Source: Asticcacaulis sp. EMRT-3 (GTDB lineage Bacteria > Pseudomonadota > Alphaproteobacteria > Caulobacterales > Caulobacteraceae). Taken from it: a DNA stretch of 64,000 bases. Where the stretch lies: NCBI RefSeq assembly GCF_030027245.1, contig NZ_JASERT010000001.1:455001-519000 (forward strand). The letters run 5' to 3'. The notes beneath the pieces were generated by a model, which made no database searches, had not been told where the DNA came from, and worked only from the letters and a program-made list of their open reading frames with translations. Made by a program: the position numbers and the translations under genes. Positions 14,105-51,766 of this stretch are shown here, in pieces; position 1 is the first letter of the stretch, and each line of letters starts with the position of its first letter.

Positions 14105-14265
14105 GATGGATCGAAATTTAGCAACCCCTCCGTCATCTTCGCCCTGACGGGCTTGCTGCCACCTCCCCATCTTCGCTTCGCTCGACAAGGAGAAGGGATG
14201 TGCCGCCTGTCACCCTCCTCCCCATTCATGGGGAGGTGTCGATCCGGCTCAGGCCGTTTACGTCC
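14105..14265. repeat. Intergenic CCTCCCC palindrome cluster
   Basis: Between convergent genes. It contains CCACCTCCCCATC, CCTCCTCCCCATTC and ATGGGGAGGTG, with a hairpin CCTCCCCATTCATGGGGAGG near 14214-14235. The same type of repeat recurs at 22290-22360, 29157-29275, 29698-29749 and 51624-51745. No coding potential. Confidence 0.7.
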
Positions 14266-22208: not shown

Positions 22209-22398
22209 CCCCTTCGGGCCCTTCGGGCTCATGGCTTTGCAAAAGCTATACTTTTGCTTTGCCAAACCCCACGCTTGCGCGCAGGGAGGAGGGCGGGCGT
22301 CCTCCTCCTCCCTATCGAGCCTTTGGCGAGGATGGGGAGGTGCCGGCGAAGCTGGCGGAGGGGTAAAACCTAACGAACGAAAGTTTGAGAGACCTATT
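22209..22398. repeat. Palindromic repeats between GH115 and mannonate dehydratase genes
   Basis: Two nested hairpins, GACCCCTTCGGGCCCTTCGGG near 22206-22227 and GGGAGGAGGGCGGGCGTCCTCCTCCTCCC near 22285-22313 (arms only paired), then GGGGAGGTGCCGGCGAAGC. This is the dispersed CCTCCCC repeat family. It could weaken read-through from the GH115 operon. No gene seen. Confidence 0.65.
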
Positions 22399-29156: not shown

Positions 29157-29275
29157 AATCCTCCTCCCCCTTGGGGGAGGGGAACCGCGAAGCGGTGGTG
29201 GGGGGTAAGGCGGGCAGCACCCCCACCGTCATTTCGTAAGAACGAAATGCCACCTCCCCCAGGGGGGAGGAGGGT
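29157..29275. repeat. Paired CCTCCCCC palindromes, left of DUF559 gene
   Basis: Two related units in inverted orientation: CCTCCTCCCCCTTGGGGGAG then GGAACCGCGAAGCGGTGGTG, and CCCCCACCGTCATTTCG then CCACCTCCCCCAGGGGGGAG. Together they form a structure of about 115 bp with nested hairpins, ending four bases before the DUF559 stop. A single related unit lies on the other side of that gene. Confidence 0.85.
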
Positions 29276-29278
29276 GTT

Positions 29279-29653
29279 TCATGGTCTTTGGATTAGGCGC
29301 TCGTGGATTTGTATGAGGACGTATTCGGCGGCGGCGTCCGGATCCTGCATGATGTAAACGGCGGGGATACGCAGGGTTTCAATGCCTTGCTTTAATAGCC
29401 AGCTATCACGGCGCGCGTCATAGGCGATAGCTTCATCAAAGGTGTGTTGCGCGCCATCGACCTCAATGGCCAGCATGGCGTCCGGGCAAAAGAAATCGAG
29501 AATGTAGGGCCCAACCGGATGCTGGCGGCGGATGGTCAGGCCGGTGTTTTTACGTGAGCGCAGGCGCAGCCACAGGCGAACCTCCGGCGGCGACATGGCT
29601 TTACGCAAGGCGCGGGCCTGTTTGTGTTTCGGTTTTGCGAGTTCGGAGGCCAT
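29279..29653 (-). CDS. DUF559 endonuclease-like protein
   Basis: A 124-residue protein of the DUF559 family, related in fold to very-short-patch repair endonucleases. The core is ALRKAMSPPEVRLWLRLRSR, GLTIRRQHPVGPYILDFFCP, AMLAIEVDGAQHTFDEAIAYD, with a putative PD-(D/E)xK site formed by E (SPPEVRLW), D (YILDFFCP) and EVD (AIEVDG). ATG at 29653 is chosen; an upstream TTG extension to 29695 is possible. It is bracketed by palindromic repeats at 29157-29275 and 29698-29749, a frequent setting for this family and suggestive of a small mobile unit. Confidence 0.85.
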   Translation of the reverse strand: MASELAKPKHKQARALRKAMSPPEVRLWLRLRSRKNTGLTIRRQHPVGPYILDFFCPDAMLAIEVDGAQHTFDEAIAYDARRDSWLLKQGIETLRIPAVYIMQDPDAAAEYVLIQIHERLIQRP

Positions 29654-29697
29654 TTCAAGGAAGGTATGATACCACCGTCTTTTTGGCAAGGCCAAAC

Positions 29698-29749
29698 ACC
29701 CTCCTCCCCCCTGGGGGAGGTGGCGGCGCAGCCGACGGTGGGGGTAAGC
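29698..29749. repeat. CCTCCCCC palindrome, right of DUF559 gene
   Basis: CCCTCCTCCCCCCTGGGGGAG followed by GTGGCGGCGCAGCCGACGG and TGGGGGT. It matches one unit of the left cluster. It also lies just beyond the thiC stop at 29755. Confidence 0.8.
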
Positions 29750-51614: not shown

Positions 51615-51766
51615 TAAAAGAACCTCCCCTGATTTCAGGGGAGGGGGACCGCGCAGCTTGCTGCGGGGTGGTGGGGTTAAATGACCGTCGGAATTAACCC
51701 CCTCCGACGCTTCGCGCCACCTCCCCCTGAAATCAGGGGGAGTTCTTTGGTAGGAATTGTGAGCCT
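51615..51766. repeat. CCTCCCC palindrome pair inside gcv operon
   Basis: GAACCTCCCCTGATTTCAGG (from 51621) and CCTCCCCCTGAAATCAGGGG (to about 51741) are long inverted arms about 70 bp apart; each is itself a hairpin around TGATTTCA or TGAAATCA. Internal text GGACCGCGCAGC...GGTGGTGGGG equals the unit beside the DUF559 gene. It sits between gcvH and gcvPA and could set the relative amounts of the proteins. Confidence 0.85.

Follow-up and report, generated by a model that had tools for sequence, protein, structure and literature searches.

DUF559 nuclease genes lie between matching palindromic repeat units that move with them

We find that a gene for a small nuclease of the DUF559 family in Asticcacaulis sp. 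EMRT-3 is bracketed by matching palindromic repeat units, and that this arrangement is genuine and specific, occurs widely and is mobile. The units flank DUF559 genes specifically, gene and repeats co-occur in the same genomes, the unit-gene-unit block has moved and been inverted, and the active-site residues of the nuclease are conserved. The simplest account is an element run by DUF559, with the scattered units as its offspring. The gene and two units would thus probably constitute a minimal mobile element of ~500 bp, whose DUF559 protein spreads the element together with gene-less units and unit pairs.

The window, meaning the whole stretch of 64,000 nucleotides that was analysed, contains the following features.

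29160..29206, forward strand: outer left unit, forming an inverted pair with 29219..29279
29219..29279, reverse strand: inner left unit, tail outward, with inverted repeats (tail 29219-29230; head palindrome ~29250-29273)
29279..29653, reverse strand: DUF559 gene, a single-domain PD-(D/E)XK nuclease (PF04480, core residues kept)
29694..29745, forward strand: right unit (head palindrome 29700-29720, then mini-hairpin, then tail 29734-29745)
14150..14245, no strand assigned: related unit with its head at ~14214-14236, plus a degenerate unit near 14162
22300..22363, forward strand: single diverged unit (head loop longer, tail GGCGGAGGGG)
51620..51745, no strand assigned: related units as a gene-less inverted pair, a REPIN-like dimer whose tails face each other

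The gene ends in a stop codon at 29279-29281 and likely starts with an ATG at ~29653, an open TTG at 29695 being a possible alternative upstream start. In a profile search its product matched PF04480 (E=5.1e-25, 87.9 bits, curated cut-off 20.6) instead of the Y1 family, for which there was no match, and it has a solved relative, 3hrl (E=4.4e-14). In each unit a head hairpin (CCTCCCC...GGGGAGG) is followed by a short stretch, often a mini-hairpin, and then by a G-rich tail, which reads GGTGGGG, GGAGGGG or, in other places, GGGTGAGGG. The inner left and right units form a 31-nt inverted repeat that is 100% complementary (29249-29279 / 29694-29724) and continues past the variable mini-hairpin into 12-nt perfect arms (29219-29230 / 29734-29745). 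A previous reading of the sequence alone had described the gene as enclosed by mirrored palindromic units, one on the right and an inverted pair on the left, and this perfect repeat bears it out. The same reading placed gene-less copies of the repeat near 14105, 22290 and 51615; relatives are indeed present there, but they are diverged and not identical copies.

Across the genus, a gene was counted as bracketed if the 300 nt to either side of it held inverted arms with a score of 18 or more. In 25 Asticcacaulis genomes, matching arms were found around 62 of 95 distinct DUF559 domains as compared with 3 of 513 control genes, which were greedy long ORFs of the same loci rather than annotated genes. 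One of the three control passes (L057:7790-8282) is itself a DUF559 copy. The other 33/95 domains were without arms at this threshold; the genus has 113 DUF559 matches, ~15 of which, some near contig ends, were left out of the locus set. The arms match gene by gene and can be identical or nearly so over 55 to 89 nt, and after right flanks were swapped between loci 6/95 domains still passed.

Arms of this kind are found far beyond the genus. A multi-phylum set of 57 loci was collected by a search seeded with the window protein; it includes one Asticcacaulis locus (L108), and 7 loci were dropped for short flanks. Here 24 of 50 DUF559 genes passed the arm test, and none of 52 control genes did. 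A phylum-wide set gave 14/30, with a control of one gene only. DUF559 lies between 57-nt perfect arms in Polymorphobacter (L122), between 48-nt arms with 1 mismatch in Pirellula, and between GGGAGAGGG...GGGTGAGGG arms in Verrucomicrobia and Archangium; inverted arms bracket it in Chloroflexi too. At one locus of the phylum sample the arms reach 101 nt with one mismatch (L173:1380-1480 and its mirror), and they have a long head-to-tail stretch, unlike the usual mini-hairpin.

A check suggested together with the sequence-only reading, whether the repeat flanks DUF559 genes in preference to other genes, thus has a clear answer in both sets (62/95 vs 3/513, 24/50 vs 0/52). The same counts bear on a simpler explanation, in which dense intergenic terminators of an ordinary kind, or REPs moved by RAYTs, make up the repeats and bracket the gene by chance. 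The units are palindromic, as this explanation expects, and bracketing of RAYT genes by REPs has been described (PMC3733652). Chance bracketing is nevertheless ruled out by the control genes, counts of reversed patterns are low and the Y1 family is not positively associated with the repeats (see below); we consider this explanation hardly credible.

The window genome (3.3 Mb) has 7 PF04480 matches; five are genes, and the other two are pieces of one broken copy. Its four other intact genes have arm scores of 25, 25, 46 and 14 (L001 to L004, in that order), and the two pieces of the broken copy score 12 and 9. The gene is multicopy throughout the genus, with 1-10 matches in 23/25 genomes. Two or three close copies stand in tandem at L024 and L057 (contig 29 of G012), at L025 (contig 52 of G019) and at L033/L087 (contig 12 of G011); the closest of these copies are 90-95% identical in amino acids, and the G012 group includes one fragment. 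At L001:1483-2559 no stop codon separates DUF559 from a PF00383 cytidine/deoxycytidylate deaminase domain, the reading frame continuing across the right-hand unit. L015:1471-2550 and L047:6968-8032 are organized likewise; the three frames were checked by Pfam, and in our own reading their deaminase domain is RibD-like. Such long frames, with DUF559 first, are found at 11 genus loci. They look as if the element had been inserted in front of a gene, which may have created a fused protein with a repeat-encoded linker.

Tail orientation was followed at the 42 genus loci with strict heads, a strict head being missing on one or both sides in 53/95. Both tails point toward the gene at 27 loci, out/in at 5, in/out at 1 and both out at 4, with 5 uncalled. 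The two inner units of the window, whose tails point outward, belong to the 4 loci of that class and are atypical of the genus majority (both in at 27/37 orientation-called loci). Away from DUF559, 54 of 102 heads in the genus loci are paired at a distance of <200 nt, as compared with 2.6% expected, and tail-to-tail is the commonest oriented class of gene-free pairs (11/21). Because of these tail orientations and of the gene-free tail-to-tail pairs, the element that carries the gene resembles two paired units enclosing it. RAYT elements are likewise a REP pair with the gene between.

The sequence-only reading had compared the layout to REP/RAYT systems, in which many short palindromic units, often inverted pairs, surround one small enzyme gene. 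The likeness holds for the arrangement and for the dispersed paired units, but does not extend to membership. The REP/RAYT enzyme is a Y1 HUH transposase (PF01797), whereas the enzyme here is DUF559, of the PD-(D/E)XK type; the DUF559 units have an A'-A-A'' architecture (described below); and the DUF559 gene is itself multicopy, unlike in the REP/RAYT layout. The GTAG foot, a RAYT mark, stands beside 8/127 genus heads near DUF559 and beside 0 of the three window units. The DUF559 system therefore resembles REP/RAYT in its working yet falls outside it, the Y1 enzyme being absent.

A second point of comparison is given by the CGTC REPs, including dRS3. These are palindromic dimers, common in alphaproteobacteria, whose mobiliser is unassigned, and the 2013 REP survey assigns no enzyme of their own to them (PMC3733652). 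The mini-hairpin of the inner left unit (29227-29248) consists of CGTC and an AT-starting stem and is followed by GCCACC, which is the CGTC REP layout; a CGTC mini-hairpin with an AT-stem occurs at 7/95 genus loci, the window's included. The pattern used for the ATTCCC-stem form of these REPs had 0 matches in the window genome and no association with DUF559 in 249 genomes (OR 0.98). The CGTC hairpin is a minor variant inside the larger DUF559-linked unit, and there may be a kinship between CGTC REPs and the units described here, a minority of which may belong to that class.

Repeat number was compared with gene presence in 249 Pseudomonadota genomes that were at least 90% complete, DUF559 presence being defined as a PF04480 match with E<=1e-10 and the repeat patterns counting only perfect arms of the written sequence. 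At least 10 repeats were found in 63 of 74 genomes with DUF559 vs 12 of 175 without (OR 78, p=6e-35), and the median number per genome was 64.5 vs 0. The reversed-pattern control gave at most 4 matches per genus genome, and in the 249 genomes mostly 0-5 and at most 26. With a laxer cut-off of E<=1e-3 for DUF559, 64/98 vs 11/151 genomes had at least 10 repeats (OR 24). Exceptions on either side are few: 11/74 DUF559-bearing genomes have <10 repeats, and 12 of the 75 repeat-rich genomes (at least 10) have no strong DUF559 match. The link also holds within families, as median repeat numbers are higher with DUF559 in 12 of the 13 families holding both states, with 1 tie. In family-stratified shuffling, the observed 63 was never reached in 20,000 rounds (mean 51.4, maximum 59, p=5e-5).

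The expectation that repeat number would follow the presence of the gene is therefore upheld across Pseudomonadota (OR 78; 12/13 families, 1 tie), and only weakly so inside Asticcacaulis, where the number of DUF559 genes and that of repeats were weakly related (rho 0.28, p 0.17, n=25). The window genome has 102 matches to the repeat pattern, and two genus genomes without DUF559 still carry 38 and 63 repeats. Other candidate families were examined in the same 249 genomes. The Y1 transposase family, which includes the RAYTs, has an OR of 0.50 with the repeats and was rejected as their mover. A general link of Vsr-type nucleases to the repeats (raw OR 2.65, p=0.002) vanishes on family stratification (p=0.44). 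One genome, G270, has 160 repeats and a weak PF04480 match (E=1.3e-5), and G250 of the same genus has 222 repeats and a strong DUF559 match; DUF559 gene loss is possible in G270.

Comparing loci shows that the bracket and its gene move together. Two loci of one genome (L084 and L076, both G009) are alike between the outer unit ends and have nothing visible in common beyond, and the likeness of L061 and L063 (both G008) again ends at the outer unit ends. We compiled 13 such pairs, of which 11 are dispersal pairs, from 4 locus contrasts, and two are in-place inversions. Homology in the dispersal pairs ends <=5 nt from the outer arm ends in 34 of 36 cases; terminal inverted repeats thus delimit the moved block, as they do in insertion sequences. 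These pairs are 74-81% identical, and the moves are therefore not recent. The whole element has been flipped in place at two orthologous loci (L031/L061 and L060/L056).

Occupied and empty sites can be compared in the gap between two genes that we read as dihydroorotase-like and plsY-like. Unit-gene-unit is found there in three species, neither unit nor gene in two, and unit-like sequence alone in one; the species-level empty sites are too diverged for a target-site duplication to be read. No target-site duplication was found, and in an E. coli empty site, of one motif pair, ~12-15 nt are replaced. The window site itself is the 3' end of thiC. A full DUF559 gene is found at this site in 4 of 25 species (G000, the window genome, G009, G012 and G015). 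A broken copy lies ~1 kb off in G019, and in G018 a DUF559 gene that is cut by the end of the stretch lies ~1.4 kb off. Five species (G004, G006, G007, G016, G021) have unit heads without the gene, two (G002, G011) have heads of different sequence, and the remaining 12 have neither head nor gene. In G015 the gene adjoins a dimer that is found alone in G004 and G007, with the tail duplicated at the junction. Relatives of the window protein occur in 49 of 72,556 plasmid records and 3 of 50,697 phage records, and recent plasmid or phage carriage is therefore no explanation for this distribution. Unit-gene-unit behaves as a mobile element of ~500 bp.

Core residues D45, E56, D58 and H62 of the domain are each kept in at least 99% of 90 genus DUF559 domains; across phyla, D and ExD are invariant and H nearly so. 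An AF2 model of the protein (mean pLDDT 88.9) was used for a structure search, in which three chains, from 3hrl and 3r3p, had E<0.001: NGO0050 (E=2e-5) and two of the homing endonuclease I-Bth0305I (E=2e-4). The next matches were T. gondii mitoribosome chains and PvuRts1I, with Vsr (1vsr) at rank 12 (E=0.06). DUF559 thus has its nuclease fold in common with I-Bth0305I, an EDxHD enzyme, and a weak fold likeness to Vsr, a family with no family-stratified tie to the repeats. We know of no case in which either of these is bracketed by palindromic repeats or moves them. Beyond close pairs, no co-diversification of enzyme and repeat was seen among the 90 genus domains, because arm type was not correlated with protein relatedness (Mantel rho 0.07, p=0.17). 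For the E. coli DUF559 protein YcjD, membership of the PD-(D/E)XK superfamily and a profile match to Vsr have been published (PMC1189080). In C. crescentus cells that lack a cytosine methylase, the DUF559 protein VsrA triggers the SOS response, and its authors give it a mismatch-repair role (PMC12907096). A DUF559 protein can therefore provoke DNA damage signalling in vivo.

The fold match to I-Bth0305I, the second best, leads to the main rival of a DUF559-run element. The repeats might be spread by another agent, with DUF559 as a selfish gene that targets them in the manner of a homing endonuclease and copies itself by break repair. The G015 site, with the gene next to a pre-existing dimer and a duplicated tail, would fit such a passenger, and DUF559 genomes without many repeats would be expected to be as uncommon as they are (11/74) if the repeats were its target. 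However, repeat-rich genomes without the gene are rare as well (12/75), the one other mobiliser family tested, Y1, fails to track the repeats, and the moved blocks have complete units at both ends. We therefore regard a homing passenger as unlikely, although it deserves more weight than the other alternatives.

An enzyme of repeat maintenance is less probable still. SbcCD handles palindromes, and DUF559 might similarly resolve or repair hairpin or triplex trouble arising from the repeats, so that repeat-rich genomes keep it. The distant Vsr similarity, the mismatch-repair role given to VsrA (PMC12907096) and the reported link of triplex motifs to instability (PMC4666352) are in line with this idea. 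It leaves unexplained, however, why the gene is bracketed, moves with the units and is flipped with them, and why genomes of the genus have 1-10 DUF559 matches.

Returning to the DUF559-run element, the following course of events can be proposed. A unit may be read as a C-rich A', a G-rich A, a short stretch that is variable or forms a mini-hairpin, and a second G-rich A''. A' would pair with A as a hairpin, and A'' would be free to form a triplex or to compete for A'. The unit would fold in single-stranded or supercoiled DNA; DUF559, being akin to homing endonucleases and Vsr, would then nick or cut at the folded unit. Repair would finally copy unit-gene-unit or unit pairs elsewhere, sometimes into a site already holding a unit, or flip the element in place. 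The sequence-only reading had put forward DUF559 as the mover of this repeat family, and specific flanking, co-occurrence and block mobility support it; the role of the protein as the agent of cutting and movement, through folding, cutting and repair copying, is the part that we infer.

The units have the architecture of a known class of bacterial repeats, BoxC, later described as PIT and TM_ECO, which is an intrastrand triplex motif (PMC4666352). There are 23 TM_ECO copies in E. coli K-12, and 262 proteobacterial genomes hold 3610. The motif is reported to form a triplex as a single strand in vitro and belongs to a type linked to instability; this 2015 study found no transposases or integrases near it and proposed no definite mechanism of spread (PMC4666352). 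BoxC/PIT/TM_ECO and the DUF559-flanking units have in common the order of C-rich arm, G-rich arm and second G-rich arm, as well as the inverted pairs and the intergenic position. The window units differ from the TM_ECO consensus (CCCTCNCCCN3-6GGGNGAGGGN3GGGNGAGGG) in their CCTCCCCC heads and in a longer stretch before the tail. TM_ECO-like arms do surround DUF559 in other genomes (L141, L159, L194).

In E. coli K-12 the two are neighbours. TM_ECO motif no. 9 lies at 1351204-1351239 in the fabI-ycjD gap (PMC4666352), and the DUF559 gene ycjD, at 1351407-1351760, adjoins it; neither ycjD nor DUF559 is named in the main text of that paper. By our own reading a second, degenerate unit lies at the 3' end of ycjD, and there is none on the 5' side. 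The chance of a motif so near ycjD is roughly 0.3 to 1%, the second figure assuming 3,500 gaps. Of 5426 E. coli genomes, 3365 carry ycjD. The gene is present in strain 55989, for which 29 motifs are listed, and in IHE3034, with 1 motif (PMC4666352), an efflux cluster takes its place; these are two strains and no test, and the motif places, listed for 60 E. coli records, are confounded by phylogroup. The replacement of the eef operon by ycjD has been described in a paper whose main text does not contain the word 'repeat' (PMC12817139). Between fabI and sapF, some E. coli have ycjD and a repeat (L165:6200-6440) where others hold an RND efflux cluster (L210:8208-16226). The hrpB-mrcB gap of E. 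coli holds a BoxC pair that is full, contracted or empty (L211, L216, L215, L217); in the contracted form a deletion from head to head has left one hairpin.

These parallels raise the possibility, to which we give about even chances, that DUF559 is the missing mobiliser of a BoxC/PIT/triplex-motif superfamily across phyla. The superfamily would then be driven by a ~500 bp element in which a single-domain PD-(D/E)XK nuclease acts on folded DNA, and the dispersed motifs, those of E. coli included, would be its non-autonomous offspring. Our search of an open-access collection of papers found none joining DUF559 with these repeats.

Two questions meet here, that of what the widespread protein family DUF559 does and that of where the widespread BoxC/PIT/TM repeats come from. 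The origin of BoxC-type repeats has been a puzzle since the 1990s, and the DUF559 nuclease is a strong candidate for their spreader. E. coli K-12 has gene and repeat side by side, and direct testing is therefore possible. If the pairing is causal, it would reveal a compact new type of nuclease element, provide an explanation for the instability of triplex motifs, and give YcjD and the VsrA of C. crescentus a testable function.
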